DNA of 35,856 nucleotides, taken from positions 1 through 35,856 of the forward strand of contig JAJQCB010000085.1 in assembly GCA_021203005.1 (NCBI GenBank), read 5' to 3'. The DNA comes from Clostridiales bacterium. Its GTDB lineage: Bacteria > Bacillota > Clostridia > Lachnospirales > Lachnospiraceae. This document shows positions 3,275-27,799 of the stretch, piece after piece. The notes beneath the pieces are model-generated. The model did not search any database, was not told where the DNA came from, and saw only the letters and a program-made list of their open reading frames with translations. The position numbers and the translations under genes were made by a program. Positions within the stretch are counted from its first letter, which is position 1, and every line of letters starts with the position of its first letter.

Positions 3275-4874
3275 ATGGAGCTGACAAAGGTAATGGTAAT
3301 GTATGACGTGCGGGGAATACAGAAATATATTTTTCGAACCGCAAAGATCAAAGATGCCATAGGTGCATCTGCGATCGTAGAGAATATCATTGAGGAGGCA
3401 TTATCCTATGCGGTAAAGAAGCTGAATCTGCAGGAACGCGCAGACCTGGAATGGTATACGGGGGATGGCGTATTGGAGTATCATGATGCAGATCTTGCGG
3501 TGCAGGTTCTGTATATTGGCGGCGGTAATGCTTATGTTATCTGTGAGTCGCGCGGGCTGTGTCTGGAGATCAACCGGATTATGGCCGGATATATTATTGA
3601 AAACACATATTCTCTCCAACTGGCAACGGCGATGGTTGCGGTGACCGGGAATTACGAGCAGGATTATGCGGAGCTGATGAATGAGATGAGCCGCGTGAAA
3701 GCGGAGATGACTTTATCAAAACCTCTGGGTGCGCTGCCGGTTATGGCTGTGGAAGTCAAAACCGGATATCCTGTCTCGGCTTCTCCGGAAACCGGGGGAT
3801 CAAAAGGCAGAACAGGAGATGTGAGTACGGAGTCCCTTTTGAAGCTGAAGAAGGAAAAGAATGTACGGAGAAATATTGACGGACAGATCAAGATACTGGA
3901 CAATTATACGACCCGGAAAGGAGTGGACAGCACGCTGGCTGTAGTACATATTGATGGAAACAATATGGGCCTGCGTATCAGAGACCTGATTTCCAAAAAA
4001 GAAACCTATGAGGAAGCGGTAAATGAGATGCGCCGTATTTCTTTTCATATAAATTTCTCATATAAAACCGTTTTCGAAAATATGTGTGCCCTTTTTTCAT
4101 GAAAAGGCAGGCACGAGAAAAGAATATCAGAACAAGAAAACAGATGGTTTTGTTCTGAAAATTCTGGTGGCCGGCGACGACATTACCTATGTATGCAATG
4201 GGAAGATTGCGCTGGCGACGGTGGAATACTATTGCAGCGAGATCGCAAAGTATACAATGACCGGAGATACAGATGAAGAAAGTGTCCGGGATTACGGCTT
4301 CAGTGTATGCGCCGGGGTCGCTTACATCGGAAGCCATTTTCCGTTCCACGTGGGCTATGATGTGGCGGAAGCCTGCTGTGAAAATGCAAAGGAGAGCGCA
4401 AAGCTGCCGGAAAATAAGAGTGGGGAGCGGATTGGAAACTGGGTAGATTTCCAGATCTGTAAAAATATTCAGGCGAGAAATCTGGAAACCATGCGGGAGA
4501 GGGAGTATCTGACAGACCATGGGGAACAGCTCCTTGCCAGGCCGTATTTTGTCCGCGTCGATTCCGATGAAAACTGGCCGGTAAAAAGGACAGATTTCCG
4601 GGCTTTTGATATCCTGAAACGCAATATTAGATATTTTCAGAATGCGAAAAATATCCCCCGTTCTTTTGCCAAAAATTTAAGGAACGTATATCCGCAGGGA
4701 AAGGATAAGGCAGATATGTTTATGGCTTTCCTGGAATCCAGAAATTGGGAAATGCCGGATAAAACGGATGAACTGTTTTTGCCGGGGAATGAAGCTGTAA
4801 TAGCAAAATATTATGATGCATTAGAGCTTCTGGATTATTATATTGATCTTGACGAGATCAGAGGAGGAGAATGA
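3275..4874 (+). CDS. cas10: Cas10 of type III-D-like system, HD domain absent; split into two frames at ~4088-4100
   Basis: N-term VMYDVRGIQKYIFRTAKIKDAIGASAIVENII and LYIGGGNAYV in ORF 3275-4102; KILVAGDDITYVCNGKIALATVEYY (GGDD-like, AGDD) in ORF 4086-4874. The halves join if one T is removed from the T6 tract at ~4091-4096. Confidence 0.88.
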
Positions 4875-7033
4875 TGGGCAGATATCAGCTAAGAATAGAA
4901 TTGCTCAGTGATATGTGTGTTTCGGATGGGGGTGTGTATAACAGCTCTCTGGATACCGACATCTGTTATGACCGTTATGGGTTTCCGTTTATTCCGGCTC
5001 GCAGGATCAAAGGATGCCTGCGGGAGTGCGGGCAGGAGCTTTGTGACTGGGGGATGAAAATCCCGGTGAAGGATTTGTTTGGAGATAAGGGGGCGGATAC
5101 CAACCGGGCGAAAGTACGGATTGGGAACGCTTATCCGGAGCATTATAATGAGATGGTCCGGCAGGCGAAAGAATATGCAGGGAACCTGATTTTTCATCCG
5201 CAGAATGTGCTCGATCACTTTTCTTATATCCGCACGCAGACCGCAGTAGATTACGACACCGGGGTGGCGGATCCGACTTCACTTCGCACAATTCGTGTCG
5301 CGAATAAGGGGCTGATATTTCTGGCGGATGTGGATTTTGAAGACAGATACTTTGAGAGTATGAGCGCCTGCTGCGATACCTTTACCAATATCGGGATTGC
5401 GAGAACCAGAGGACTGGGCGAGATCCGGGCGACATTGACGGAAAATATCATGGAGGAAAAGGGAGGCAGTGATATAAACAGGCATGCAGCCTATGTGCCG
5501 GGAGCTGTGCGCCTGGATTATGAGTTGTTTCTGGAGGAACCGGTAATCTGTAAAAGTACCAATGGCGGAGAAGCGCGCAGCCTTGACTATATTGACGGCA
5601 GCAAGATTCTCGGATTGATTGCGCAGGAAATCAGGCGTCAGGGAGGAGATTTCCCTGCGTTTATGAGAAAAGGCGAGCTTTTCTGCTCAAACGCTTATCC
5701 GGCGGTTGACGGTGAGCGTTGCCTGGAAGTGCCGGCAAATTATTATTCTATCAAGAATGATCATCAGCGCTATGTAGAAAAAAACAGCCAGGAATCTCTG
5801 CCGGAAGAAGTAGGGAAGCTTCAGCTGAATATGATGAAGCATTGTTATGTCAGAGTAGATTCTGCGGGGAAATTGCTCCGGGAAACGGTGGCAATGGAGG
5901 AAAGATATCACCATCGCAGACCGGAGGACAAGTCGATCGGAAGGGCTGCGGAGGAGGCGTCCGGCGGCAGCAGGTTCTACCAGATGTCCAGTATCGAGGC
6001 CGGACAGAGACTGGCGGGATATGTGACAGGAACAGCGGAGCAGATACAGACCATTTACCGCAGCTTCAGCGGTTTACAGGAAATATGCCTGGGGTACTCA
6101 CATTCCTCTGAATATGGGAAAACGCAGATCAGAGTAACCGGACTGCAAACGGAAACTCCGATAAAAACGGTGGAACTGAAAGATTTTATGGTAAAGCTCG
6201 AGTCCCCGGCAATCCTTTACAATGATCGGGCGTTCTATTCTACGGATATTGCTGATCTGGACGCCGAGATTCAGGCGGTGCTGGGGGTGGCTGATACTCC
6301 GGCGAGAGTGAAACGTATGGATCGTTATGTAAACTATACAACTGTGGGCGGATATAATGTGACGTGGAACATGAGAAAGCCAACCATGGAGGCGTTTGAT
6401 AAGGGAACGGTTCTGCTTTATCATCTGGATGAGCCGGTTCCCGTGACCCTGCCGGGGCAGATTCTGATCGGTGAGCGGGTATCTGAGGGATTTGGCGAGG
6501 TGTCTGTGCGGGAACTGGAGATGGGTGAAGAAGGACGGATTGGTTTGTTTGGAAAGAAGGTCAATGCGGCGCAGGCCAAACAGGTACAGGTATATCCCGG
6601 TTCTCTGTCGGAAGCTTTGTGCAGGGATATGTTTCATTATTATGTGAAGACGAGAGCTGTGTCTGATGTAAAAAAACTGTCCGGCAAGGATGCGGGACTG
6701 AAAACAGAGCAGGCGAGACCTACAGTGAGCAACATGCTTTTGATGTGCAGGGAGAACACTTCCATGGACCGGATTGCCGATTCCGTGGAAAAACGATATG
6801 GGAAAAGGTCGGAGCAAAAAGGAGAAAAGCTGAAAATGGCCGGAAGAATTCTGGATCTTGCGGAAAAAGGAAGTGAGCCGCTTGCAGCTCTGTTTTGCGA
6901 AAAATATTGTGTGGCTGATTTTGGTTACAGCCGTGAAGCTGCGGAGTATCTGTATCTGGAGGCGCTTTTGCAGCAGTTGAAATATAGTATCCGAAAACGG
7001 GAGGAAAAAGGGAAGCGGAAGGAGGAGACGTAA
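4871..7033 (+). CDS. csx10: Csx10-like RAMP protein (type III-D)
   Basis: LLSDMCVSDGGVYNSSLDTDICYDRYGFPFIPARRIKGCLRECGQELC, the Csx10 N-terminal signature; glycine-rich RAMP loops (GIARTRGLGEIRA). Confidence 0.82.
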   Translation: MMGRYQLRIELLSDMCVSDGGVYNSSLDTDICYDRYGFPFIPARRIKGCLRECGQELCDWGMKIPVKDLFGDKGADTNRAKVRIGNAYPEHYNEMVRQAKEYAGNLIFHPQNVLDHFSYIRTQTAVDYDTGVADPTSLRTIRVANKGLIFLADVDFEDRYFESMSACCDTFTNIGIARTRGLGEIRATLTENIMEEKGGSDINRHAAYVPGAVRLDYELFLEEPVICKSTNGGEARSLDYIDGSKILGLIAQEIRRQGGDFPAFMRKGELFCSNAYPAVDGERCLEVPANYYSIKNDHQRYVEKNSQESLPEEVGKLQLNMMKHCYVRVDSAGKLLRETVAMEERYHHRRPEDKSIGRAAEEASGGSRFYQMSSIEAGQRLAGYVTGTAEQIQTIYRSFSGLQEICLGYSHSSEYGKTQIRVTGLQTETPIKTVELKDFMVKLESPAILYNDRAFYSTDIADLDAEIQAVLGVADTPARVKRMDRYVNYTTVGGYNVTWNMRKPTMEAFDKGTVLLYHLDEPVPVTLPGQILIGERVSEGFGEVSVRELEMGEEGRIGLFGKKVNAAQAKQVQVYPGSLSEALCRDMFHYYVKTRAVSDVKKLSGKDAGLKTEQARPTVSNMLLMCRENTSMDRIADSVEKRYGKRSEQKGEKLKMAGRILDLAEKGSEPLAALFCEKYCVADFGYSREAAEYLYLEALLQQLKYSIRKREEKGKRKEET

Positions 7034-8368
7034 ATGGGCAATCGATCCATTAAAAAAAGAAAATATATTGCGGTAAAAGTCAGATTGGCGTCACCCCTTA
7101 GCATATCCGGCGGGACAGATGAGATGACGGATGCAGATGTGCTGGTCAACGGAAGCGGCGAGGTTTTTATTCCGGGGACATCGCTGGCCGGGGCAATACG
7201 GAATTATCTCGAATTACAGAAGGATGAGAGGGGAATGATGGGATACTCCAGGGGGAAGGAAGGGCGAATGAGCGCCCTGTATCTTTCTGATCTGTATTTT
7301 GAGAACGAGGAGGAAAGATCGCAGTCATCTGCAGGACCGACAGTCTCCGTGCGGGACGGCGTAAAACTTACCCGGGAAAAGACGGTAGAAAATAAGTTTG
7401 ATATGCAGGTGATTGAAACCGGCGCTGTCGGCATGATGTATCTGAACTATGTAATCCGTGAAAATGATGAGGAGGAAATCTGGGACAGGGATATTCATGA
7501 TGTCCTTTGTGCCATTCAGAATGGGAGTATCCGGGTCGGGGCGAATAAAAACAGGGGCTTTGGCAGGCTTTCGATTGCAAAGATATGGCAGAAGACATTT
7601 GCGTATGGAGAGGATTCTTTTGACATCTCCATGTGGCTGGGCTTTAAAAAGAACGCAAAGGATATAAACTTATATTCGGAAGGAAAGACCTTTGAAGAGT
7701 GGAACGGAGGCCAGCCGGCGTCCGTTATGAAGAAATATGTCAAACTTACGGTGCCGCTGAAGCTGACCGGAGGAATCAGCATCCGGAAATATTCCACGCA
7801 GCCCGGGAAAGCAGATTATGAACATCTTACCTGTGACGGGAAGCCGGTCATCCCGGGGAGCAGTTGGAACGGTGCAATCCGGGCGGACATCCGGGATATT
7901 CTTACATCTCTCGGGATGACACAGGCACGGGTGGAAGAATGGATGGATTTGTGGTTTGGCAAGGTTTCTGTAAATGATAAAACTGCGTGGCAGTCCAGAG
8001 TCGTGGTTGGTGAAAGTGTGATTGAAGGAGCCACAGCTCTGCCGATCACCAGAAATAAGATCAATCGGTTTGATGCGTCTACGATTGACGGTGCGCTGTA
8101 TTCAGAAATTGCATATTTTGGCGGCCGGACAAAGCTGGAAATTATGGTTCGCAAAGATACAGATGAGAGCGAAAACAATTATGCTTTTCATGCACTTCTG
8201 GCGGTTTTGGAGATGGTAGTAAAAGATATTCAGGAGGGTTATGTACCTGTTGGCGGGCTTACTGCCGTGGGCAGGGGGATTTTTGAAAAAGATGAAGAAC
8301 ATGACGTTGTCTTCAGTGAGGAGATATCTATGGATAACTGCAGGGCAGAATTGTATTCGCTGTTATAG
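7034..8368 (+). CDS. Double Csm3-like (Cas7) RAMP protein, two fused Cas7 units
   Basis: Two RAMP units: KVRLASPLSISGGTDE...VFIPGTSLAGAIRNYL...GANKNRGFGRL and KLTVPLKLTGGISIR...PVIPGSSWNGAIRADI...GGLTAVGRG. Confidence 0.85.
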   Translation: MGNRSIKKRKYIAVKVRLASPLSISGGTDEMTDADVLVNGSGEVFIPGTSLAGAIRNYLELQKDERGMMGYSRGKEGRMSALYLSDLYFENEEERSQSSAGPTVSVRDGVKLTREKTVENKFDMQVIETGAVGMMYLNYVIRENDEEEIWDRDIHDVLCAIQNGSIRVGANKNRGFGRLSIAKIWQKTFAYGEDSFDISMWLGFKKNAKDINLYSEGKTFEEWNGGQPASVMKKYVKLTVPLKLTGGISIRKYSTQPGKADYEHLTCDGKPVIPGSSWNGAIRADIRDILTSLGMTQARVEEWMDLWFGKVSVNDKTAWQSRVVVGESVIEGATALPITRNKINRFDASTIDGALYSEIAYFGGRTKLEIMVRKDTDESENNYAFHALLAVLEMVVKDIQEGYVPVGGLTAVGRGIFEKDEEHDVVFSEEISMDNCRAELYSLL

Positions 8369-8384
8369 GGTGAGGAGGTAAGCG

Positions 8385-8774
8385 ATGTATTGGAATGAGT
8401 TAAATGTGGAAAATGCGCCCGAAAGAGGCCAGATGCTTCTCTATACCCGCAGGTCAGTGCTGTTTCAGGAATACGCAGATAAGGCTGAGATTGGAAAGAA
8501 TCTGGCGGATCAGGAGTTATTGGAAGTTCATTTGTTTGACCGGGAGAAGGAATACCGCGCGATTGCGACGAGAAGCCCGCGTTTCCCGGGTGGCATCATA
8601 GAGACCGTCGCGGATTTTCCTGAAAATGAGGAAGATGCCATTTACAGAGAGTCGGTGCTGTTGGAGAAAGGAGAAGGCGTGATCACGGTGCTGAACCACA
8701 TCGTGTATGATAAAAAAGGTATGGCGTCTATGGATAATTACCGGATGAAAATGGGAGGGAGCTGCGATGAGTAG
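8385..8774 (+). CDS. Csx19-like (TIGR03984-like) small protein of a type III-D operon
   Basis: 129 aa; position between the Csm3-like and TIGR03986-like genes, as in III-D loci; assignment mainly positional. Confidence 0.55.
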   Translation: MYWNELNVENAPERGQMLLYTRRSVLFQEYADKAEIGKNLADQELLEVHLFDREKEYRAIATRSPRFPGGIIETVADFPENEEDAIYRESVLLEKGEGVITVLNHIVYDKKGMASMDNYRMKMGGSCDE

Positions 8775-11007
8775 ATATCAGTTTATAAATCCGTATAATT
8801 TTATCCCGCTCTCTTCCGGGTGTGCTGCTGCGCCTGCGGAGGAAAAAGGATATACGGGAGTCATCCGTTATTCTGTGTTGACTAAAACGCCCCTATTTAT
8901 CCCTAATACGAGCAATTCAGATGCGTTTGGAATGCAACAGAAGACAGCGGATCATAAGTCCTATGACTTTTTTACCTATACTGACTTGTCGGGCCAGACA
9001 GGTCCGGCGCGGGATGCTCTGCCGGTCATTCCCGGCAGTGAGATGCGCGGGATGATCCGGAGCAATTTTGAGATACTGACTAATTCCTGCATGTCTGCTG
9101 TAGACGATGAGGTGACGCTGAGCAAGCGGACATATGAGAGGTTTCAGGCCGGACTGATCCGAAATAATACAGATGGAACATTTGATCTGTATGAGGCGGA
9201 AGACTGTCTGATGCGAACCAGGGGAAAAGACAGCCTGGAGGATGACTGGGCAGACGATTCCCGTCATTATACCAGGAAATGCTATGTCCAGAATGACGTC
9301 CGGGAAGGAAGCCATGTTTATTTCGAGATGGAGAGGCGCGGATATAAAGTCAAATCTCTTGCAAAAAATGTTTCGTTGACAAGACGGCCGGGGTTGAGAG
9401 CGGAGGGCTATATTATAAAAGGTGAGGATGGCCCGGATATGGGAGGGCGCAAGCAGCAGAAGCATTGCTGCCATGTGTTTGCGTGCAGGCAAAACAGCCG
9501 TCCTTACCGGGAAAACATATCTCTGGAAACCTTAGAAAAAGTCCTGAGGGAATATAAAAACAACAAGGTGCATCCCTATGAGGAATACTGCAGCTGTTTT
9601 GACGCATTTCAGAAAGGACAGGGGGAAGAATATTTTCCGGTATACTACAGTCATATCAGCAAAAACGGGATGGATAGCCTGATGCTGTCACCCGCCTGCA
9701 TCACGAGGGAAATCTACAGCACGAAGATAAAAGATATGATCGGAGACCATCGCCCGTGCAGCGATAAGAATAACCTCTGCCCGGCATGCGCCCTGTTTGG
9801 AACCGTGAAGACCAGAGGGAAAGGAGATGCATTTTCTGTGACATCCAGAATCCGTTTTTCGGATCTTGTCTGCAGGGAAAAATCGGCAGAATTGTGCTAT
9901 GACAGAAAAGTGACACTGCCGCCGCTGTCATCCCCGAAACTGAATAATATGGAATTTTATCTCCAGCGGCCCGCGGAGGACGCCGTGTTCTGGACTTACG
10001 ATTATTATATCAACGCAAAAGGGGAGATTTTCCCCAACCGGAGCGGCATTAACGGAAGAAAATTTTTCTGGCATAATCCTGATTATAAATTAGAACAGTA
10101 TAAGCCGGGCAACCAGAATATGACTATCCGGCCGGTGAAAGCGGGCATCGTGTTTACGGGAAAATTATATTTTCAGAATCTGACAAAGACAGAACTTGAC
10201 CAGCTGATTTTTGTCCTGAATGCCGGCGATGAGGCGCAGCTGCATGATAAGAGTCATGGATACAAGCTTGGCGGGGCGAAGCCCCTTGGCCTTGGGAGCA
10301 TTGCGCTTTCTGTGGACGAAGTGATGCTCCGGAAGATTGTGAAAAATACGGAGACCAGAAGTGTGGAACGGCAGGAAATCGCTTATCAGGGGTATGCGGC
10401 GCCTGAATTTGATGCGGTTATTCTGGAAAATTTCCTCAAAATGGCCGATTTTTATGCTGTCGTTGATAAGAAAGTGTGTTATCCGTTTACAGATAAGAGA
10501 GATGACGAAGGGCACAGGGTGATTTTTGACTGGTTTGTGCAGAACCATGTGAGAAAAGAAAAAAATGGTTCTTATACAAACAAGATGCCGAAGTCCCGTA
10601 TGCAGATGGCTTATGCGGAGTATTTAGAAGCGATGGAGCCGGAGACGAAACCTACCGGAAAGCAGGGCAGCAGAGCGGAAAGCGGAACATCCGCCGGTGG
10701 AAAACAAAGTTATCGGACGAAACGCACGGTGCCTGCAGAGGAAAAGCGGCAGGAAAGCGGAAACGCCGGGAAAGAACCGTTTGTGAGAGGAAAGAACTAC
10801 CAGGCTGAGATAACAGGGTGCAACAGGAAAAATATCTTTCTCACTGTGGAAGGACAAAAAGGACAGATTTATTACAAGTCGATTCGCGAGGCTGATGAGG
10901 GACAACTGGATCAGCTCTTTTACAGAGGACAGAAGATAACCGTGAGATATGACAGGTCATCGGAGTATCAGGGGAGAACCAGCTACAGTTTTCGGTGGGT
11001 GAAGTAA
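8767..11007 (+). CDS. TIGR03986-like CRISPR RAMP protein with an appended C-terminal OB/S1-like domain
   Basis: N-term FINPYNFIPLSS; GVIRYSVLTKTPLFIPN...PVIPGSEMRGMIRSNFE...CPACALFGTVKTRGKGDAFSVTSRIRFSD; C-term FVRGKNYQAEITGCNRKNIFLTVEGQKGQIYY. Confidence 0.85.
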   Translation: MSRYQFINPYNFIPLSSGCAAAPAEEKGYTGVIRYSVLTKTPLFIPNTSNSDAFGMQQKTADHKSYDFFTYTDLSGQTGPARDALPVIPGSEMRGMIRSNFEILTNSCMSAVDDEVTLSKRTYERFQAGLIRNNTDGTFDLYEAEDCLMRTRGKDSLEDDWADDSRHYTRKCYVQNDVREGSHVYFEMERRGYKVKSLAKNVSLTRRPGLRAEGYIIKGEDGPDMGGRKQQKHCCHVFACRQNSRPYRENISLETLEKVLREYKNNKVHPYEEYCSCFDAFQKGQGEEYFPVYYSHISKNGMDSLMLSPACITREIYSTKIKDMIGDHRPCSDKNNLCPACALFGTVKTRGKGDAFSVTSRIRFSDLVCREKSAELCYDRKVTLPPLSSPKLNNMEFYLQRPAEDAVFWTYDYYINAKGEIFPNRSGINGRKFFWHNPDYKLEQYKPGNQNMTIRPVKAGIVFTGKLYFQNLTKTELDQLIFVLNAGDEAQLHDKSHGYKLGGAKPLGLGSIALSVDEVMLRKIVKNTETRSVERQEIAYQGYAAPEFDAVILENFLKMADFYAVVDKKVCYPFTDKRDDEGHRVIFDWFVQNHVRKEKNGSYTNKMPKSRMQMAYAEYLEAMEPETKPTGKQGSRAESGTSAGGKQSYRTKRTVPAEEKRQESGNAGKEPFVRGKNYQAEITGCNRKNIFLTVEGQKGQIYYKSIREADEGQLDQLFYRGQKITVRYDRSSEYQGRTSYSFRWVK

Positions 11008-11101
11008 CGATAACCGAAAATCTGTGAAGATATCTATGATTCCGGTGATGATTGGTTCCGGGATAGTATGCTGCCAATCAGGTGACAGAATGGAGATTAG
11101 C

Positions 11102-12040
11102 ATGATATTGAGCCAGCTGTTGGAAATACCTTATGTAAAACTGCAGTTTCAGTTGGAAATACTGGAAGACGCCGTATTGCCGCAGACAAAGACCTCCGCT
11201 CTGCGGGGCGGTATGGGAGAAATGCTGCTGCGGCAGAATTGTGTCAGGGACAGGAAGTGCGGTCAGTGTCCGTTCCGGAAGAGTTGTATTGTCTGGGACA
11301 CGTTTTATTCCAGGATGGAGCAGAAACCGGGGTATGTTACCGGAAAAGAGAGCGTGGGGTATCTGATTGAATGCCGGGACTATTCCACATTTTTTACGGC
11401 CGGCAGCCGCCTGGATTTTTATCTGACCCTGTTTGGAGACAGTATTGTGTTTTTTCAGGTCTATCTGCAGGCTTTCACTTACCTGGGAATGGCGGGGGTC
11501 GGAAAGAATCATGCCCGGTTCCGGATTGCGGAGGTGAAAAACATGGAGGGACGCCGTCTGGTGCATGATAATGTCGTCGATATGGAATGCTATCAGATCT
11601 GTTCGCTTCGTGAGCATGCGGAGAAGAGAAAAGAATATCTGCGGCAGAGACAGGGGGAATATACCATGTTGTTTCTGTCTCCTCTCAGCATGAAGTTCCG
11701 GGGGGAATATCTGAACCGATTTTCGGGGGAGGCAGTCGTAAAAGGCGCAATGCGCAGGGTGGAGATGTTGAACTATTATATCGGAAATGAAATAAAACTG
11801 GCGGAATGCCCGGAATTCCCTGAGATTGCGAAACAGAAAGTGCGGCGGGAGGAAGTACAGCGGTATTCCGGCACACAGGATGCGCGGATACGTCTCCCGG
11901 GGATAAAAGGGAAAATATTGTTCAAATCCATGCCGGAGGAGTGCCTTGAGTATCTTCTGGCCGGGGAACTTACGCATATCGGCAAGAATACCAGCTTTGG
12001 GTTCGGACAGTATATTGTGAAAAAGGAGATGGCTGAATGA
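11102..12040 (+). CDS. cas6: Cas6 crRNA-processing endoribonuclease
   Basis: ALRGGMGEMLLRQNC...CGQCPFRKSCIVWDTFY and C-terminal G-rich motif ELTHIGKNTSFGFGQYIV; RBS ggag before ATG 11102 (alternative ATG 11090). Confidence 0.88.
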   Translation: MILSQLLEIPYVKLQFQLEILEDAVLPQTKTSALRGGMGEMLLRQNCVRDRKCGQCPFRKSCIVWDTFYSRMEQKPGYVTGKESVGYLIECRDYSTFFTAGSRLDFYLTLFGDSIVFFQVYLQAFTYLGMAGVGKNHARFRIAEVKNMEGRRLVHDNVVDMECYQICSLREHAEKRKEYLRQRQGEYTMLFLSPLSMKFRGEYLNRFSGEAVVKGAMRRVEMLNYYIGNEIKLAECPEFPEIAKQKVRREEVQRYSGTQDARIRLPGIKGKILFKSMPEECLEYLLAGELTHIGKNTSFGFGQYIVKKEMAE

Positions 12041-12170
12041 GAGTTGACCGGGCATAAAAATCTCTTTCCTTTCCGGGTAAATGGAGATATAATAATAGAC
12101 GGGCGGGAGACAAAGACATGCAAAAATGAGACCGTCAGCCCCTGGTTTCTGCGGGTTACCAGAGTGTACT

Positions 12171-12539
12171 TTAGAAATGAGATAAGCCAGTTGAGGGCAT
12201 TGACACTTTCAAAACCCCTTAATATTTTATTCAGTAGAAATGAGAGAAGCCCGTTCAGGGCATTGACACCAACCAAATTCGCCAATATGATACCGAGCTC
12301 CTTTTTTGTAGAAATGAGAGAAGCCCGTTGAGGGCATTGACACCTCTTTGTGTCATATATTTCCTCCTGTTTACTAAGGTAGAAATGAGAGAAACCCGCT
12401 GAGGGCATTGACACCTCAAGGAAATTACTTCCTTGGTTACTGTTGTTTATCGTAGAAATGAGAGAAGCCCGTTCAGGGCATTGACACAACACAGATGCCT
12501 ATGATCACAACAATAACAATTGCGTAGAAATGAGAGAAG
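12171..12539 (+). CRISPR. Short CRISPR array: five 36-bp repeats plus one truncated 16-bp repeat, five spacers
   Basis: Consensus GTAGAAATGAGAGAAGCCCGTTGAGGGCATTGACAC at 12171-12206 (degenerate), 12234-12269, 12308-12343, 12379-12414, 12452-12487 and truncated 12524-12539; spacers 27, 38, 35, 37, 36 nt; 3' end ATTGACAC resembles a type III 8-nt handle. Confidence 0.97.
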
Positions 12540-12545
12540 AATCTT

Positions 12546-13340
12546 ATGAAAATTTTAAAATTAATCGTGCATGGCGGTGAATTTCACGCAGACGATGTCA
12601 TGTGTGCGGCCATTGCAAGAGTAGTAAATCCGGACGTTCAGATAGAGCGTGTATTTCAGGCGCCGGTATGCTGTGAGGAGGGAACTGTTGTTGCAGACAT
12701 AGGCGGCGGCAGATATGACCATCATCAGCAGGACGCAGAAAAAAGAGAAAACGGAGACAAGTACGCCGCCTGCGGTTTGCTGTTGCGGGACTTCTGGCAG
12801 CAGATTTTTCCGGATGAAGCATCCTATCGCAGGTTTGATGATGAGGTGATCCGACCCATTGAGCTGGCGGATAACGGGGTGGTTCTCAATCCGTTTTCCT
12901 TAGCCGTGTCTTCCTTTGTCCCGAACTGGGACTCGGAGGAAACGATGGATCAGGGGTTTGAAAAGGCGGTTGTGTTTGTGACGGAATTTCTTGAGCGCCA
13001 GATTGAAATCGCGAAATCCGAGCTTCGCGCGCGATGTCTGGTGGAAAAAGCTCTGGCACAGAGCGACGGTAATATCGTGATCCTTCCGCAATTTTGCCCA
13101 TGGCAGAATACGCTTGTCCCGTCATCCGCACGTTTTGTTATCTATCCGTCGAATCGCGGCGGATACAATCTGCAGACAGTCCCGGAAAAAGTCAACGGTT
13201 TTATACCAAAAGAGAGTCTTCCGGAAGAATGGCTGACAGAGCTGCCGGAGGGGTGTACTTTTGTACACCAGGCGCGGTTTCTGGCAGCTTTTGATACCGG
13301 GGAACATGCGGTTTTCGCTGCGCGAAGCATCATGGGGTAA
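12546..13340 (+). CDS. MYG1/UPF0160-family DHH-type metal-dependent phosphoesterase/exonuclease
   Basis: VHGGEFHADDVMCAAIARV...VVADIGGGRYDHHQQD...CGLLLRDFW...DNGV: MYG1 signature including DHH motif. Confidence 0.85.
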   Translation: MKILKLIVHGGEFHADDVMCAAIARVVNPDVQIERVFQAPVCCEEGTVVADIGGGRYDHHQQDAEKRENGDKYAACGLLLRDFWQQIFPDEASYRRFDDEVIRPIELADNGVVLNPFSLAVSSFVPNWDSEETMDQGFEKAVVFVTEFLERQIEIAKSELRARCLVEKALAQSDGNIVILPQFCPWQNTLVPSSARFVIYPSNRGGYNLQTVPEKVNGFIPKESLPEEWLTELPEGCTFVHQARFLAAFDTGEHAVFAARSIMG

Positions 13341-13367
13341 ATGTCGAAAGAACGGAGAGGGACGGCG

Positions 13368-15335
13368 ATGAAACGGAGTATAGTGATCGCACAGGTTGGC
13401 AAATTAAATTACAGGGAAGCCCATTATAAAAGCAGCGGCACAGACATCATATATGATGCAAAGTATTCCTGCGCAGCAGTCATGAGAGAGGTTTTACGTA
13501 AAACAAAGACGGATGATATGCAGCTTATACTGGTAGGAACAGAAGATTCTGTCCTCGGTAATGTTTACCTGGATTTTTCAGAGGAAATTTCTGATCCGTT
13601 AATTGAAGATAAATTGTATGGAGAAAAGAATCCCTATACCGGAAAAATCGAAATGCATATGATACAAAACATTGCAGACCTGGATGTTTTGTGCGCTTTT
13701 GAGGCTGTAATGTCAAAAAAGTTCGCTGCTCAGTTTGCGTATGCAAATATGCATGTGAAACTGGCTATCATAGAATACGGGAAAACGCAGGAAGAGCTTC
13801 AGGAAAATTTTTCCATCATCAGAAAAACAGTAGAGGAAGCAATTTATTCCGGCCGGGAGAGGAGCGGCACGGATTTCGATATACAAAAAGAGGAAATTGA
13901 CGTTTATTTTGACATATCAAACGGGTTTCGTTCTTTCCCGATTTATATTTATACACTGATCAATTATCTTTCCCAGATCCGGGATTTTAATGTCCGTTTC
14001 CATATGTATTACGGAATGTTTGAGGCAAAACAGACAGACATGGGACCGAATGGAGAGATGGTTGAAGTTACGCCGCTGGTAGACCTCTGGATCATTGACG
14101 ACATGATGAACCTGATTCGCGGCATCAGTGAATTTCGAAGCTGCGGCAGTGTCGTGCAGATCCGGGAGCTGCTGAAACAGAATCCTGAATGGGATGTAAA
14201 GATTGGAGATAACACAGAGGAAACGTTGTCATACGCGTTTAACCTGTTTGACTACGGGACGAATGCGAATAATCTTGCCGCAATTAAGCATGCCATTGAC
14301 CTTTTGATCGGAATGGAGGAACAGCTGAAAGGAAAAGAGCCTGTCAATGTTGCGGAATACCTGTTGCTGGAAGATATTTCCGGAGATTTCAGGGATCGGT
14401 TTGATACTGCTCAGAGTAACTATCCGTATGGGCTCCTGATGATCCGCCTGGCGGAATGGTATCACATGCAGGGCCGGGAGGGAAATGCTGCAATCGCCGC
14501 GCAGGAAGCGATCATTACCTATATGTTGGAGCGGTACCCCGACACAGTAAATGCGTATTTGAAAATGAATCCGCCTAAAGACTTTCCGAAAGAGGGGATT
14601 GTGGATTTTACCAAAGCTGAAAATTTATTTCATTATAATTATCGGAACCCGGTTAAGAGCTTTCTGGATAATCTAAACCGGGATGCTGGCCAAAATGGTC
14701 AGGATGAAAAAATGAATGAGTTTCTGAGAGCCTATTCTTCCGTGAAAAATGATATTCGGAATGTCATGGCGCATATCCTTTTATCCGACCAGAATGGAGA
14801 AGACGGGAATTTCAACGTCAACGGGTACAGGGAAAGTATTGAGAAATTGATTTGTTTCGTAAGAACCGAAATTGAGAGCCGTTCGGAGGAAGAGCGGATA
14901 TTTGGTGAAAAGCTGAACACCTATATGAGCGGAAAGGTGTGCAGACAGAGGGAAAATGCGGAAAAAGAGCAGCTGCTTAGTTGTATGCTGGATAACCTGT
15001 CCGAGGGAAAAGAATACCATATTCCATCAGGCAATACCGTTGTTCCGGAGGAATTTATACGTGCTTTGGAAATGCTGGCGAAACAGCTGAATAGTATGAA
15101 GAATGCACAGGATTTCGATGGTTTCTATGAGCGGCGGAAGAGAGATCTCAGATTATTGTTTTGTATTCTGGACGAATGGATTTGCCGTAGGCATAATAAG
15201 CCCTCCGAGAATTTATACAAAGAATGTTTTAAAACGAAAAATCATAAATCGGGTTATATTCGTCTGGTTAATTTTATGAAGAGCAATAAGAAAGCAGTCC
15301 TGGACATTTTGGAATATTCGCAGACTGTGCTGTAA
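13368..15335 (+). CDS. csx1: CARF-HEPN protein, Csx1-like (TIGR02221/Csx2-type) ribonuclease
   Basis: VYFDISNGFRSFPIYIYTLINYLSQIRDFNVRFHMYYGMFEAK (CARF D-x-[ST]-[HN]-GFRS-P and YYG motifs); C-terminal SVKNDIRNVMAHIL contains RxxxxH (HEPN). Confidence 0.85.
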   Translation: MKRSIVIAQVGKLNYREAHYKSSGTDIIYDAKYSCAAVMREVLRKTKTDDMQLILVGTEDSVLGNVYLDFSEEISDPLIEDKLYGEKNPYTGKIEMHMIQNIADLDVLCAFEAVMSKKFAAQFAYANMHVKLAIIEYGKTQEELQENFSIIRKTVEEAIYSGRERSGTDFDIQKEEIDVYFDISNGFRSFPIYIYTLINYLSQIRDFNVRFHMYYGMFEAKQTDMGPNGEMVEVTPLVDLWIIDDMMNLIRGISEFRSCGSVVQIRELLKQNPEWDVKIGDNTEETLSYAFNLFDYGTNANNLAAIKHAIDLLIGMEEQLKGKEPVNVAEYLLLEDISGDFRDRFDTAQSNYPYGLLMIRLAEWYHMQGREGNAAIAAQEAIITYMLERYPDTVNAYLKMNPPKDFPKEGIVDFTKAENLFHYNYRNPVKSFLDNLNRDAGQNGQDEKMNEFLRAYSSVKNDIRNVMAHILLSDQNGEDGNFNVNGYRESIEKLICFVRTEIESRSEEERIFGEKLNTYMSGKVCRQRENAEKEQLLSCMLDNLSEGKEYHIPSGNTVVPEEFIRALEMLAKQLNSMKNAQDFDGFYERRKRDLRLLFCILDEWICRRHNKPSENLYKECFKTKNHKSGYIRLVNFMKSNKKAVLDILEYSQTVL

Positions 15336-15385
15336 GTATAATCAGTAATTTGAGATGGGATGGTGTTGCCGGGAGGGCAGGCAGG

Positions 15386-18174
15386 ATGAGCAATATAAGA
15401 TTTGAAATCGGAGAACTGACAGAGATCGAAGAGATAAAAGAGTTTCATACTGAAGCGGGCGCATCCATGCGTTACCGATTGACAATAAAACTTCTGACAG
15501 TTTCTCCGGAATCCGACTTTAGCGTTGAGGATATTTGCGATTTCAGGCGGAAAGTATATCTTTATGCGCCTTTTTTTGATGCATGCGGGCTTCCGTATAT
15601 TGCAGACGAAGCGGAAGCGGTAGTAAAACCTGATCTTCCGTTGTACGATACAGAGGAAAGATGGGTAGAGTTGAAAGTACGGTCTGTCATACGGGGAAGA
15701 ATTCTGTCAGAAACAGATATAGAAAATGTAAAAGATGAAAAACTATATATCGGAAATGTGAGTTTTGATTACTGGAAGAATTTAAAGAGCGATGTAGAGG
15801 TAATAGCGAAATGGAACAGATCTATGCCGAAATCCTGTTATTCTGACCTAGATCGGTGCGTTCAATGTGCGCTTGCCACAGGCAATCATCTTGCATTTGC
15901 AAAATATTTTACGGAAAAGGCAAAGCCGAGAAAAGAAATTGCCGCTGTTGTCTTAGAAAAATATCTTGATAGATATAACAAAAAAGATGAATGGAACCAG
16001 TGGAAAATTCTTCCGACCGCTATTTGGCGGAGTTTAGATTTCGAATATACGGAAAATAATCTGAAATGGAATGCCTACGATTATGCTCAAATGAGTACGT
16101 GGATTAAGAGGGTCGGTTCGGTTCCTGACAAGGATATCCTGGTTCAGCTGGCGCTCAGTATGGGGCTGGATGGGGACGAGACAGATATGCTTCTTATGGC
16201 ATCTGGGTATGATCGACTCTATCTGCTGGATGCGGCGGATCTGTTTGCGAAAATCGCGCTTGATAAATACGGGAATGATACGGTTACATCTGATTATGAC
16301 AAAAGAAAAGAGGTCTTCGAACAGCAGAAAAAGTTCATGGCTTCACAGACAGATTTGGAGTTAAAATACATTTTAAATGAATTAGAACCGGAACAGCGGT
16401 CGGATTTTGAAAACTGCTTTTTATCTGCCTTAGAAGAAAAGGAATGTGCCGGTGAGTTTAAAGCGGAAAGAGATATCATTATAGAAATTTTAAATGATTT
16501 AAAAGATATGCGGAAAACAGGTAATTTGGACGCCGGGAAATGGTACGTTACGGAAAAGAAAGATAAAAAAGGCCATATAAAATATATTGACATAACGGAA
16601 GTTAAAAAGGATGATACGCATAGGTATTGGGGGATACAAAAACAATCAGACAGTTCTGAAATAATTGTATGGAGATATGAGTACGTACCAATAGCAGGAA
16701 ATAAACAGGAGTCTTCACAGACAGATTCGGATTTATCCGAATCATCGTGTTTGAATTTTATCCGGGATTATGGCGACAGAAAAATCAAATACATTTTAAA
16801 TGAATTAGAACCGGAACAGCGGTCGGATTTTGAAAACTGCTTTTTATCTGCCTTAGAAGAAAAGGAATGTGCCGGTGAGTTTAGGATGAAAAAAACGCCG
16901 TTAAAGAAATTTTAATAGATATGAAAAAGGACGTTGATAAATGGGATATTACGGAAAATAAAAAGGATGGCAATGTAAAATATATTAACATGAACGAAAA
17001 GAATACGCATACGTATTGGAGGATACAAAAGCAATCAGACAGTTCTGAAATAGTTGTATGGAGATATGAGGACGTACCAATAGCGAGATATAAAACGAAG
17101 CTAAGCCGGAATATAGAAGGTGATATACAGAAGTTTATAAATGAGTTTGAAAAATCTTACGGAAAAAAGAATATCCAGGAGACAGAATATCTTACAAATC
17201 TGATGGGCAAGTTGTACAGGGATAAAGGAGTTACGGTAACAGATAATGGCAGTATATCCATATCGCTTCCGGGTGAAAGCCATGTAGAACCGAAAAAATT
17301 AATTGAGCAGAGGCGTTATGGCTACTTAAAAAAGATGGATAATTTCCTGAAAGACCGGGAGGCATATGAAAAATATTTACCGGATGACCCGAACTCCTGT
17401 GAATGGAAGTGGGAGTGGTCAGGCAACGTGAGCGATTTGGTATCGCATATTGATAATTGCGGCCGCTTGCTGAGTAAGGATGGAAGAAAATCGGGATACA
17501 GAACGGGGAATGGACTGAATCAGGCTACCATAATCTGGAACAGGAGGAGCAAACTATTTGACCCCTATGATTTGCCAAATGCCAGTGCGCGAAGAAGCAC
17601 ATTGAGAAATATGCTGTTTGGCAGGGGAGGTAAGAATAAGTTTGATGTGATAACCCAGATAGATAAGGCGGATTTTTTTAAGTTTCTCGTGATCACGGGG
17701 CATGAGGATGACATCGGAATTTATATGAAAAAACTTGGTTTTTGGAAGGAAGACTTGTATTCCTTGTATTCGCCAAATTTTGAGTTACACATTGATCCGG
17801 AAGATTTTCAAATAGATCCGGAAGGTCTTAAAATGGAATCCTGCGATTATATTTGTGACAGGAAAGATTTGCTGTTGCTGTATGCCCTGGTATACAGGGA
17901 TGAACTGCTTGATTCTTACTTTTTTTCCGGCAAAACCCGTGAGGAAAGAAATAAATTAAAGCAAAAGTTTCCGTTCCTTGAAGTCGTAATGGAGATTTCA
18001 AATACGATAGTGCGCAGTTATTACCTGCAGCGAAAAAATCCGGCTGCTTCATTCCATGGACCATGGATCCTTCGCGGGGCAGGTATTGACGGCATCGTTT
18101 ATTCAGACGACGTCATGTTTTTTGAAGAAAAAGGGCGGAGAGTCAGGAGTGCTGAAAATGAGCGGGAACGATAG
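15386..18174 (+). CDS. Large uncharacterised protein with internal tandem duplication, interrupted by a frameshift near 16884-16900
   Basis: ORFs 15350-16915 and 16921-18174: the C-terminal ORF continues repeat copy 2 in another frame. Pieces resemble a regulatory/HTH-like pattern (SMGLDGDETDMLLMASGYDRLYLLDAADLF). Confidence 0.6.
16364..16883 (+). repeat. Direct repeat inside coding sequence: 97-bp identical copies at 16364-16460 and 16787-16883 (423-bp offset), followed by diverged homologous segments
   Basis: aaatacattttaaatgaattagaaccggaacagcggtcggattttgaaaactgctttttatctgccttagaagaaaaggaatgtgccggtgagttta occurs twice, identical. Confidence 0.95.
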
Positions 18175-20297
18175 AATGGGCAGGAATCTGATCGCGGAAA
18201 CCGGGAATGCGGTAATATACAGCAATGGTGAAGATGGCGATACTATTTTTGCAATCAAAAAATATAAAGATGCCGGTCGCGCCATGCAGTTTATGGAGCA
18301 TGAAAAGAAAATCTCCCATGAAATATATGCCAGGACGCAAAAAAGAGAGGCGGTCATTCCGATTCTTGACATCACAGAGGACGGATGCGGGCGCATGATG
18401 TTGAAGAAACACGGACATTTTTTAAATGACCTGATCCCCGAACTGGAAGACAGATATGATAGCAGCAGCACCAGAGGACTTTTGATCCGGCTGAATATCA
18501 TAAAGGAGATACTGACATCTCTGGATACGATCCATTTTTGCGGAATGGATGAGGGAAGCGGTTATGTGCATCTCGATATTCACCCCGGGAATATATTTTT
18601 TGAAAACACGGATATAGAGCATGGACGGATCGGGACAGCGAAATTCCTTGATTTTCTGAGTGCCAGGCCGGTGAGCGGCAACCGTGTGCTGCAGGATGGT
18701 GCGGAATTGATTATTGCAACGCCCGTATATGCGGCGCAGGAATATCTTGAGGGGACTATGGATGCTGTGTGCAGGGCGGCGGACCTGTATTCTGTTGGGA
18801 AAATTTTTTGCAGAATGCTTTTTCGCGGCCCGGTGTCATCGTGGGAAGAGGATCGCCTGAAGTATTCAAAGGCTGCGATTGAGAAAGCGCTGGGAAGCAG
18901 CCTGAGCGCGGACATCATCGCTCCTTTTATCCGGTGTGCCCTGGACAGTAATCCGAGGTACCGCTATCAGACAGCCGGTGAGATGAGACAGGCAGTGGAA
19001 GACATGAGTGCTGTCCTGCGTGACTGTGAGAAGAGAAAGTTTGACAGCGTATTTTCCTATCTGTTCGATCATGGATTCGTATGGAAAGAATCCTGGCTGG
19101 AGGAGTTGGAATGCGGGGAGGGGAAACTCCTGGAATCAGCAAACCGTCTGAAAGAAGCGTTGCTGAGAGACCATATAAGCAGCTCCAAATGTTACTATAT
19201 CTACAGAGGCCTCCGCGGGTTATTAGAGAAAAACAAAAAATGAAATAAGAGAATACGGGAAGATAAAAAATCTGCTGCTGGTATCAGGAGTATCCTGCTG
19301 CAATTATACAGGGCGCAGCAGCGAAGCCATAGAATTGTATGAAGAACTCCGGGCAGATGAAGTGGATATGGAGTTGCAGGATTATCTGGTGCTGCTCAAC
19401 CGGACAGCGGTATCCTATGCAGATTCCCTGGATTATGAGGGAGCCTGCCGTCTGATTGAAAAAAGTATTTCTTCGCTGGAAGCCATAAAAAAGATCAATG
19501 CTGAGATCGCGGGAAATCTTAATTTAAAAGCATCTGCAACCTTTGTGAAAGATCTGGCCCGGGCCTATTCGGCGAAAGGCTGTTACATGACACTCTGCGG
19601 TCGGAATGAGGATGACAGTAAAACGCCGCTATATTACTTTGGCAAAGCACTGGAGGAATTTGGGGAAGATCGCGGGAACCGGAGGATTACGGCATCGCAT
19701 ATCCTGCAGTATGCGATTGAGAAAAAAGACAGAGCTATCTTTGAAAAATATGCTTTGGAAGAGAATTACTTTGGCCTGGAGGATAGCCGGGGAGCAGACA
19801 GATCCCCTGCCCATATTCTGGAAAATCTTCTGTTGCAGGGAGATCCTTACGTGCTCCATGTATTTCTTAAGGGAATTTACAGTTTTTACCTGAATAAGGC
19901 TGATGAGTCTTTTTCAGATATCCTGAAATCCGCTTTGTACCATGAGTTTTTGTGCTTTGAAAAAAATGACCCGATGGAGCTGGTGTTCCGCTGGGCGGGA
20001 ATGATTTTATATGAGAAGAATGGACATAAGGCGGATGCTGATGTGCTTCGCGCGTACAATCTTGCGATGTCATATGTCCCGGAGGCGGAGATCCATCCGG
20101 AGCAGCCAATCAATATTCTGACTCTGGCCACATATCAGTCCAGATACCAGTACAATGAGATAGCTGGTGGGGATAATGAAAAGCTGTATGGGGAGTTTGT
20201 GGAGCATTGCCATCGCTTCGGGGATGAAAGAATTGCAGAGATATACAAAGGAGGACCGGAAAGATTAAATGAAGTCCTGACTTTTGAATATGTATGA
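18158..20297 (+). CDS. Ser/Thr protein kinase with C-terminal TPR-like region, apparently frameshifted at ~19235-19240
   Basis: FAIKKYKDAG...YVHLDIHPGNIFF...KFLDFLSARP (kinase motifs) ends at 19243; a second frame without a good start reads EIREYGKIKNLLLVSGVSCCNYTGRSSEAIELYEEL... to 20297. Removing one A from A6 joins them. Confidence 0.75.
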
Positions 20298-20417
20298 TAC
20301 CAGGGTCAAAAGGTCATGAATGGAGCGCTTGCGGTCCAATTCATGGGTATCATCATATGCATCAGATATATGGATGCCGATTGATATTGTCTGAATAAAG
20401 TGGAGGGAAAATCAGAG

Positions 20418-21545
20418 ATGGAAGAGTATGAGGAGTATTGGGATTTTGAAGCAGGTGAAACAGAGAACTGTCTAGACGATCGATCGCAGATAGAAGAAGT
20501 TGGAGATTTCCGGATTGCTGACCAGCATACCCTTGTGGGAGTAGGCGGTTATATCCGAAAGACAGAGACATATGTCGGGATTCCCGATCACATCAGACGG
20601 ATTGGGGAAAAAGCATTTGCAGGATGCGAGAATCTCATGGCAGTGAATATTCCGGATTCTGTGACAGAGATTGATGCAGGGGCATTTTCCTGCTGTGAAT
20701 CACTGAAGATAATCAAAATTCCGGCTTCGGTAAAAATAATCAGACCGGAAACGTTTGCACATTGCATCCGCCTGAAAAAAGTGATCCTGCCCGATTCGCT
20801 GGAAGCCATACAGGAACATGCGTTTTATCGCTGCAGATCTTTGGATGATATTTGTGTCGCGTCAGATGTCAGGATAGACGAAACAGCGTTTGAGCTTTGT
20901 TCACCGAAATCCCGGACGATCGCATTGTTTTATCCGGGAGATATCGATGACGAGATAATTTCCGGAACAGAGGAGAGGCTGAAAAAGGCAATGCAATCTG
21001 AATATGACTATACATTTTGTCCGGAATACAGGAGTATGGCAGATGCTTATTATAAATCTGATATTCAGATCCTTGTGATAGACGCAAATTTACTTTTTGA
21101 GGAAAATGAAGACTATGAAGGGATTTATCGTGCTCAGATCCGGGAGATGTTTGAAACTTTTGCTTCCCCGGCATTTATGATGGTCAACTATGAAAAATAT
21201 TATTACAACGAAAGGGAAGAAAGCGGTGGGAATGATCTATGGTGCGGTGAAAGCTATCTGAACTCTTTTGTCGCTAATGCCGCTGTTGACGCCGGCTTTG
21301 GTGGAAAAATAACTGACGAAATGTATCATGTTGTTTTCTTTTCCCTTGAAACAGGTGCATTTTATACATTGCGGAAGAGTATGTTTACTGAGGAAGGAGA
21401 TCTGGCGGAGTTTTTGAAAAATTTCGGACGTGGGCTTGACGTAGAGAGATATGGTAAATTGCTGACATTGGATCCGGCGAGCACTCCAATCGAATATTTG
21501 GAATTTTTTCACTGGGATGAAGACGATGAGGAGGATGATGAGTGA
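20418..21545 (+). CDS. BspA-type leucine-rich repeat (LRR_5) protein with acidic C-terminal domain
   Basis: IPDHIRRIGEKAFAGCENLMAVNIPDSVTEIDAGAFSCCESLKIIKIPASVKIIRPETFAHCIRLKKVILPDSL. Confidence 0.88.
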   Translation: MEEYEEYWDFEAGETENCLDDRSQIEEVGDFRIADQHTLVGVGGYIRKTETYVGIPDHIRRIGEKAFAGCENLMAVNIPDSVTEIDAGAFSCCESLKIIKIPASVKIIRPETFAHCIRLKKVILPDSLEAIQEHAFYRCRSLDDICVASDVRIDETAFELCSPKSRTIALFYPGDIDDEIISGTEERLKKAMQSEYDYTFCPEYRSMADAYYKSDIQILVIDANLLFEENEDYEGIYRAQIREMFETFASPAFMMVNYEKYYYNEREESGGNDLWCGESYLNSFVANAAVDAGFGGKITDEMYHVVFFSLETGAFYTLRKSMFTEEGDLAEFLKNFGRGLDVERYGKLLTLDPASTPIEYLEFFHWDEDDEEDDE

Positions 21546-21571
21546 TTAATATATAGGAATCGATTACATGG

Positions 21572-21600
21572 AGCAGTGTTTTTTAACACTGCTTTTTTTT
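21572..21600 (+). terminator. Rho-independent terminator ending the CRISPR-associated operon
   Basis: agcagtgtt-tttt-aacactgct followed by a T tract. Confidence 0.92.
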
Positions 21601-22444: not shown

Positions 22445-23062
22445 ATGAATGTACAGGTAAAAAGCAGCAATGGGATCACTTTGGTTCCGGTGGAGACGCG
22501 CCTGATGGCAGAACGCAATATTTTTATTGAGGGCGAGATCAATTCGGAAAGCGCCTGTGAGTTCGTAAAAAAGGTTATGTACTTAAACAGCGAGGATGCG
22601 GAAGAACCGATTCATGTCCTGATCAATTCAAACGGCGGCGAGATCAATGCCGGGATGCTGATGTACGATGTGATCCAGGCCAGTAAAGCGCCGATCCGGA
22701 TGTATTGTATTGGGCACGCCTACAGCATGGCGGCAGTGCTCTTTGCCAGCGGCAATTACGGGCGCTACATGCTGCCGCACGGAGAGCTGATGCTCCATGA
22801 GCCGCTGCTCGGAAACCGGGTGGGAGGGAACTCTTCCTCCATCAAATCGATTTCCGACAGCTTGCAGGAGTCAAAGCGGGTCATGAACCGGATCCTGGCA
22901 AAGCACACGGGGAAAACAGAAAAAGCGGTGGAAAAGGCGACAAATTATGACCATTACTTCAGCCCGGAGGAAAGTATCGCGTTCGGGCTGTGTGATGAGA
23001 TTGTAGGGTTTGACAGAATGATGGAGGATGAAAACGGTTATGGACAAAATGATACTTGGTGA
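22445..23062 (+). CDS. ClpP-like serine protease
   Basis: PIHVLINSNGGEINAGMLMYDVIQASKAPIRMYCIGHAYSMAAVLFASG...PHGELMLHEPL...YDHYFSPEESIAFGLCDEIVG; Ser-His-Asp triad positions retained. Confidence 0.93.
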   Translation: MNVQVKSSNGITLVPVETRLMAERNIFIEGEINSESACEFVKKVMYLNSEDAEEPIHVLINSNGGEINAGMLMYDVIQASKAPIRMYCIGHAYSMAAVLFASGNYGRYMLPHGELMLHEPLLGNRVGGNSSSIKSISDSLQESKRVMNRILAKHTGKTEKAVEKATNYDHYFSPEESIAFGLCDEIVGFDRMMEDENGYGQNDTW

Positions 23063-24352: not shown

Positions 24353-24538
24353 ATGAAGGGAAAGAAGGTCATGAATGAGAAAAGTATGGATGCTTTGAAT
24401 GATTGTTTCCGTAACAAACGTGCCGGTGAATCTGAGGTAATTGCGAAAGCATGCCAAAGAGCAGCGCGTATGAGGGAATGGAAAGAAAAGGAATCCAAAC
24501 AGGAATGCCGGATATATATTCCGGGAAAGGAAGGATGA
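24353..24538 (+). CDS. Small uncharacterised protein, ATGA-coupled to the downstream LRR gene
   Basis: MKGKKVMNEKSMDALNDCFRNKRAGESEVIAKACQRAARMREWKEK...; stop overlaps ATG 24535. Confidence 0.45.
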   Translation: MKGKKVMNEKSMDALNDCFRNKRAGESEVIAKACQRAARMREWKEKESKQECRIYIPGKEG

Positions 24539-25608: not shown

Positions 25609-25618
25609 GGTGTTGATT

Positions 25619-26986: not shown

Positions 26987-27037
26987 AACAGAAGAATTAT
27001 GACAAGTAAATTATAAACCTGAAAATCAAAGGAGGAA

Positions 27038-27781: not shown

Positions 27782-27799
27782 AAGTGAGGTGGATGGTAA

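Follow-up and report, generated by a model that had tools for sequence, protein, structure and literature searches.

A MYG1-family phosphoesterase and a CARF-HEPN ribonuclease as the probable ancillary module of a type III-D CRISPR operon

The window analysed here is a stretch of 35,856 nucleotides from a gut-type Clostridiales bacterium of the family Lachnospiraceae (contig JAJQCB010000085.1, C80 in our numbering, assembly GCA_021203005.1), and corresponds to one whole contig of an assembly that has 312 contigs, totals 3.83 Mb, and is 95% complete and 6.4% contaminated. Positions 3275-12040 hold a complete type III-D operon of a clustered regularly interspaced short palindromic repeats (CRISPR) system, in the III-Dv gene order: cas10, csx10, csx7 (double-RAMP), csx19, a TIGR03986 RAMP gene and cas6. 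These genes are followed by a short array, a gene of the MYG1 family, a gene for a CARF-HEPN ribonuclease, two related open reading frames (ORFs), a kinase ORF, a TPR-like ORF and a gene for an LRR protein. We are confident that the real ancillary module of this locus is the pair formed by MYG1 and CARF-HEPN, and that the genes from 15.35 kb onwards are passengers.

The type III-D-like character of the operon, proposed in a preliminary description of this DNA, is borne out by profile matches for each of its six cas genes, all on the + strand. The cas10 gene (3275-4874), of III-D type and with no HD domain seen, consists of two overlapping ORFs (3275-4102 and 4086-4874), which match adjoining halves of the PADLOC Cas10d profile (E 6.8e-60 and 2.4e-51); the second contains the palm motif AGDD, which several related Cas10 proteins have too. 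The csx10 gene (4871-7033), a Cas5-type RAMP fusion in the position of cas7-5-11 in III-Dv, matches the RAMPs family (E 9.7e-10) and also TIGR02674 (E 5.4e-11), the latter with 42 bits, under the curated cut-off of 177 bits, while position and RAMP match agree. It is followed by csx7 (7034-8368; RAMPs E 7.3e-28), with two RAMP stretches and in the cas7-2x position, csx19 (8385-8774; PADLOC Csx19 E 4e-21), the TIGR03986 RAMP gene in the cas7-insertion position (8767-11007; E 4e-85, above cut-off) and cas6 (11024-12040; PADLOC Cas6 E 1.1e-63, also PF10040). The cas genes have a G+C content of 0.48. The cas10 frame is broken at a T6 run (4092-4097), and relatives such as the Blautia locus L186 have cas10 as a single ORF; a second frame break, at an A6 run (19235-19240), separates the kinase and TPR-like ORFs, which are perhaps one gene split at that point. 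Since homopolymer runs are prone to assembly and sequencing errors, we do not conclude from these breaks that the CRISPR system is dead; they may reflect either sequencing error or real decay, and Cas10 may or may not be intact in the cell.

The CRISPR array that had been placed in the middle of the unit was found at 12172-12540 (+ strand), between cas6 and MYG1, and comprises five repeats (GTAGAAATGAGAGAAGCCCGTTGAGGGCATTGACAC) and a sixth that is truncated after about 16 nt. This last repeat stops 6 nt short of the MYG1 start codon, and its GAGAGAAG run is at ribosome-binding distance from that start (12524-12551). The purine run of the truncated repeat thus appears to supply the ribosome-binding site of MYG1, and the array and MYG1 may therefore share a transcript. 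Two other contigs of the same genome have related repeats. Contig C9 (L318) carries an array with a near-identical repeat together with CARF-HEPN, cas1, cas2, a reverse transcriptase/primase-polymerase gene and Csx20; it may represent a further type III locus, or else a module that serves adaptation in trans. On contig C233 (L323, about 1501-1537) a single repeat of the window type lies behind a leader-like sequence resembling that of the window array.

The identities first given to MYG1 and CARF-HEPN both hold. MYG1 (12546-13340, + strand), a DHH-type phosphoesterase, matches PF03690 over its full length (residues 6-259; E 6e-34, 118 bits against a cut-off of 22), and solved MYG1 exonuclease chains match the same profile at E 9e-42. 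The residues H14, D16, D51, D58-H59-H60 and D109 of the metal-binding motifs (HxDD, D, DHH, D), together with H9, are invariant across 46 homologues and are all intact in the window protein. Its predicted model has a predicted local distance difference test score (pLDDT) of 96.7, and in a fold search the leading eight matches were all DHH enzymes (NrnA/Pde2, RecJ and NrN), with weak TM-scores. The CARF-HEPN gene (13341-15335, + strand) has a start codon that abuts the MYG1 stop codon, with a gap of 0, and encodes an RNase of the Csx1/Csm6 group with a CARF2 domain (PADLOC CARF2 CARF_HEPN, E 3e-42), in which the HEPN motif (R-x4-H) is present as RNVMAH at residue 473.

To judge whether the downstream genes belong to the operon, we compared the surroundings of type III or RAMP matches in about 80 stretches, some of the weaker RAMP ones being perhaps not complete type III loci. 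The genomes covered were a family sample of 397, in which 18 had a TIGR03986 match over the cut-off and had their neighbourhoods fetched, and a class sample of 390 further genomes that added more type III loci. In addition, an alignment of MYG1 proteins was used to scan 85,462 species genomes, and the 80 nearest of 503 relatives were kept; a scan of genome contigs with the single MYG1 sequence gave no match, whereas the alignment-based scan did. PF03690 is sporadic in the family, with matches in 44 of the 397 genomes (40 over cut-off), about one genome in ten.

MYG1 was found in, or directly against, the type III operon at eight loci, seven of them III-D and one a complete III-A. The III-D cases are the window, two family genomes (G007, L093, and G368, L090) in which MYG1 is followed by cas6, three Ruminococcus loci with the orders CARF-HEPN, MYG1, array (L149), CARF-HEPN, MYG1, cas6 (L195) and TIGR03986, MYG1, cas6 (L198), and the Blautia locus L186, with the order array, MYG1, Csm6-type CARF-HEPN, cas10. 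In the III-A locus (G185, L105) the order is cas2-cas1, MYG1, cas6, the csm genes and Csm6. The frames of MYG1 and CARF-HEPN abut or overlap at three loci (the window, L149 and L195). MYG1 adjoins cas6 at five of the eight loci (L093, L090, L105, L195 and L198); it abuts or overlaps it in L090, L105, L195 and L198. The same association is suggested by two short contigs, one with a HEPN-bearing fragment followed by MYG1 (L185), the other with a primase-polymerase-like ORF, MYG1 and an array (L194). With the window excluded, a type III operon adjoins 3 of the 37 MYG1 loci of the family sample, against about 0.03 expected by random placement, an expectation that counted only type III loci detectable by TIGR03986 and is somewhat too low, but not by a hundredfold. 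In a tree of 107 MYG1 proteins built by a quick method, the state 'type III-linked' has to change seven times, with no fewer than four of the changes on well supported branches, and in a smaller, more careful tree the three type III-linked copies need three changes. From these trees it looks as if MYG1 was recruited next to type III genes repeatedly, on several separate occasions.

The preliminary description had proposed checking whether its five downstream proteins co-occur with Cas10, Csx10 and TIGR03986 in unrelated genomes. MYG1 and CARF-HEPN do recur with these genes in other genera and families, whereas the unknown ORFs, the kinase, the TPR-like ORF and the LRR gene do not. Given the recurrence of this pair, the operon does have accessory genes in addition to those already known.

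Other genes were observed beside these operons. The III-D operons of G007 and G368 (L038 624-1931; L090 13444-14727) have a CARF-only gene beside one for a 430-aa protein, which shares 25% identity between the two loci and has no PADLOC match; the two genes together are a possible new effector. A TIR-domain protein is encoded directly 3' of the Blautia III-D operon (L186 11352-11897). A nucleotidyltransferase-HEPN pair of the MNT-HEPN type lies 5' of the window operon (1187-1925), and a homologous pair is found just upstream of MYG1 in genome G129 (L120 11133-11859).

The ring nuclease Csx20, the one ring nuclease family scored, is present in cis at none of the eight MYG1-bearing type III loci, against 9 of the 31 others (Fisher p 0.095), and seven of the eight genomes with type III-linked MYG1 have no Csx20 anywhere. 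Sister III-D loci without MYG1 carry Csx20 at a comparable spot, beside cas6 (L039 and L049) or CARF-HEPN (L042); sister locus pairs differ as MYG1 versus Csx20.

Judging from the families involved, recognition of foreign RNA by the guide CRISPR RNA (crRNA) would activate Cas10, and the active Cas10 would make a messenger, in all likelihood a nucleotide of the cyclic oligoadenylate (cOA) kind, which would bind the CARF domain and switch on the HEPN RNase. MYG1, as an enzyme of the DHH fold, would hydrolyse this messenger or its linear products, and so limit the response. We consider removal of the Cas10 messenger or of its linear products, restraining the CARF-HEPN RNase, to be the best single mechanism for MYG1, and put it forward tentatively. 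Such an off-switch is consistent with the recurrent recruitment of MYG1, its intact motifs, the DHH enzymes among its fold matches, the precedents of MAD and NrN (see below) and the MYG1 loci free of Csx20. It is also possible, although we hold this wider proposal more loosely, that MYG1 represents a new non-CARF class of type III off-switches, which bacteria took up on several occasions as a substitute for ring nucleases.

Several observations weigh against an off-switch. The exclusion of Csx20 is statistically weak at the p value given above, and four independent pairs are too few for significance; moreover, the window's own genome has Csx20 on contig C9, though in an assembly with 6.4% contamination. 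A strict rule of MYG1/Csx20 exclusion is, for these reasons, not established. At L105 and L186 the effectors are of the Csm6 type (CARF1), and since Csm6-type effectors often destroy their own messenger (PMC12409355), an extra ring nuclease should be unneeded there. MYG1 is present in 3 of the 18 family III-D loci, window included, and in none of the further III-D loci of the class sample, and most MYG1 genes lie far from CRISPR. Finally, the activity described for MYG1 of eukaryotes is that of an exonuclease on RNA (PMC10089162).

The last point leads to the strongest alternative, in which MYG1 would work specifically on crRNA, trimming the intermediates left by the Cas6 cut as a 3'-5' exonuclease. 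Human and yeast MYG1 are 3'-5' RNA exonucleases (PMC10089162), the III-A system of Staphylococcus epidermidis uses the host exonucleases PNPase and RNase R for trimming (PMC9762709), and MYG1 is a neighbour of cas6 at most of its type III loci, as detailed above, with only the array between them in the window. Trimming would also suit L105, L186 and L198, where the effector either can do without a ring nuclease or is of a kind other than CARF-HEPN. However, the ring nuclease Csx20 occupies the same cas6-side spot in L039 and L049, so that adjacency to cas6 is not specific to crRNA work, and most III-D systems are without MYG1. On balance we regard a trimming role as unlikely, while still a serious contender.

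That MYG1 is itself an effector, degrading viral or host RNA fragments such as the leftovers of the HEPN RNase, seems to us doubtful. In its favour, MYG1 of yeast acts alongside NUC1 and SKI to hold back the L-A RNA virus, the human protein can substitute for it (PMC10089162), and MYG1 directly adjoins CARF-HEPN in the window, L149 and L195. Yet many MYG1 genes stand alone, and MYG1 has neither a CARF nor another sensor domain, which would leave its activity uncoupled from the alarm. More improbable still is that MYG1 came in by chance on mobile DNA and plays no part in type III immunity: its sporadic presence in the family and the location of most copies away from CRISPR would agree with this, but at least four separate recruitments, co-directional and overlapping or abutting frames in two subtypes, and the excess of type III-adjoining loci over random placement all speak against it.

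The genes downstream of CARF-HEPN, which we do not count in the CRISPR system, present a different picture. Two related ORFs (15350-18174; 15350-16915 and 16921-18174, + strand), without notable family match, take the place of the single unknown protein first described, and have a tandem duplicated segment in common; their G+C content is 0.40, compared with 0.48 in the cas genes. The low G+C and the duplicated segment suggest that these ORFs were recently inserted. For the first of them, AlphaFold2 without alignment gave a pLDDT of 36, which is unusable. The Ser/Thr kinase and TPR-like ORFs (18164-20297, + strand) had been read as one kinase-TPR protein, of which the kinase part stands (Pkinase E 4.3e-12), but there are two ORFs, divided at the A6 run, and family searches gave no TPR match, the label being that of the preliminary description. 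The BspA-type LRR protein (20400-21545, + strand) was correctly recognised (LRR_5 E 7.7e-29), and LRR_5 occurs in all 19 type III genomes searched, with 1-83 matches each among the matches listed.

None of the two related ORFs, the kinase, the TPR-like ORF or the LRR gene has a homologue beside the approximately 80 other type III or RAMP stretches, and for the first three kinds a search of 200-299 family genomes gave no near homologue. The kinase family gave no match near the III-D locus of any other type III genome searched. Homologues of the unknown ORF were found neither in viral contigs nor in plasmids, those of the TPR-like ORF were absent from plasmids, and those of the kinase from viral contigs. 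Further downstream there is a cassette of LRR, kinase, VWA, PP2C and transglutaminase genes (24451-29703). Its paralogue within this genome lies on contig C110 (L317 4686-10839); the last four proteins are 50-72% identical between the two cassettes, and no CRISPR array was found near the C110 copy.

Gene direction and packing, on which a single unit had been postulated, are confirmed as far as they were described: from 3275 to 21545 every gene is on the + strand, with intergenic gaps of -17 to +102 nt, except for the 505-nt interval of the array. The run nevertheless extends past 21.6 kb to about 31 kb, through bPH, ClpP, TraG, a second LRR gene (LRR2), a second kinase, VWA, PP2C and transglutaminase genes (bPH, ClpP and TraG were named by profile, the later genes by their own sequences plus LRR and kinase matches), so that direction and packing set no boundary for the CRISPR operon and do not delimit the unit. 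A terminator-like hairpin with an 11-bp stem is indeed present at 21570-21595 (+ strand), but terminator-like matches over the whole stretch number 34, against 17 in shuffled sequence (about twice the expectation), and to call it the only strong one is a judgement on stem length. ClpP-TraG pairs also lie near two other III-D loci (window, 22445-24299; L042 of G194, 17354-19224; L051 of G118, 16190-18066), which suggests a conjugative-type element as the vehicle of the III-D system.

The idea of a single functional unit reaching to 21.5 kb and coupling cyclic-nucleotide signalling to phosphorylation, which its co-directional genes, small gaps and lack of a strong terminator before 21570 had favoured, is hardly credible given the absence of homologues of the downstream genes beside the other type III loci compared, the lack of near homologues of the unknown, kinase and TPR-like ORFs in the family genomes searched, the paralogous cassette elsewhere in the genome, the G+C drop at 15.35 kb and the continuation of the + strand run beyond the terminator. 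Among the loci compared, the downstream kinase and LRR genes were found next to cas10 in this strain alone, the outcome that the preliminary description had named as refuting, and the proposed link to phosphorylation thus fails by that measure. As CRISPR effectors, the kinase, TPR-like and LRR genes were rejected, on account of their failure to recur beside type III loci and of the CRISPR-free paralogous cassette.

What is new here is a type III system with an ancillary gene, MYG1, that we did not find described, which is not to say that it was never reported. No paper joining MYG1 to type III CRISPR was found in a literature search that stopped short of supplements, preprints and subscription journals, and three recent type III surveys, on effectors and on ring nucleases (PMC11229360, PMC12409355, PMC12669027), leave MYG1 out of their main text. 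A nuclease family conserved from bacteria to humans is repeatedly built into type III operons that are otherwise well catalogued. If MYG1 cleaves the messenger, this would explain how III-D loci without known ring nucleases are shut down, and would tie the turnover of CRISPR messengers to nucleases whose yeast member has an antiviral role as well; if it trims crRNA, it would identify the enzyme that matures crRNA. Either role may bear on the antiviral action of the yeast MYG1. The family is also present on mobile DNA, with 67 plasmid records, every one under 60% identity, and 33 IMG/VR viral contigs with MYG1 homologues (L283-L315), several of them over 200 kb; no CARF-HEPN, Csx20 or window-like cas genes were found near MYG1 on these 33 contigs. 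Should MYG1 degrade CRISPR messengers, the viral genes could serve in counter-defence.

The closest known relative in gene order is the III-Dv system of Synechocystis PCC 6803 (PMC11026444), which likewise has cas10, a csx10-type fusion, a double cas7, csx19 and an insertion cas7, then cas6, with accessory CARF proteins nearby; the structure of its complex has been solved. The window locus differs in being without cas1 and cas2, in its short array and in having MYG1 in the operon. For MYG1 itself, two DHH enzymes provide the precedents. NrN, the DHH phosphodiesterase of CorA-linked type III-B systems, degrades S-adenosylmethionine-AMP (SAM-AMP) (PMC10600005), and resembles the window case in that a DHH-fold phosphoesterase gene lies beside a type III effector; the MYG1 model, moreover, has structures of NrN among its best fold matches. 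The window, however, has CARF-HEPN as the partner and lacks CorA, and its MYG1 belongs to a different DHH family (PF03690). MAD, the membrane-associated DHH-DHHA1 cOA nuclease of Sulfolobus islandicus, degrades the cyclic tetra-adenylate cA4 (PMC7854544), and is thus, like MYG1, a DHH enzyme, and one that removes a cyclic oligoadenylate, but it is archaeal and membrane-associated, and its DHH family is other than PF03690. Csx20 (PMC12409355) is comparable as a small gene beside cas6 or CARF-HEPN in the sister III-D loci (L039, L042 and L049), whereas its CARF-like Rossmann fold and its activity in ethylenediaminetetraacetic acid (EDTA) set it apart as unrelated to MYG1. The MYG1/UPF0160 exonucleases of eukaryotes and bacteria, lastly, share the PF03690 family and the same conserved motifs with the window protein, which differs from them in being encoded inside a CRISPR operon.

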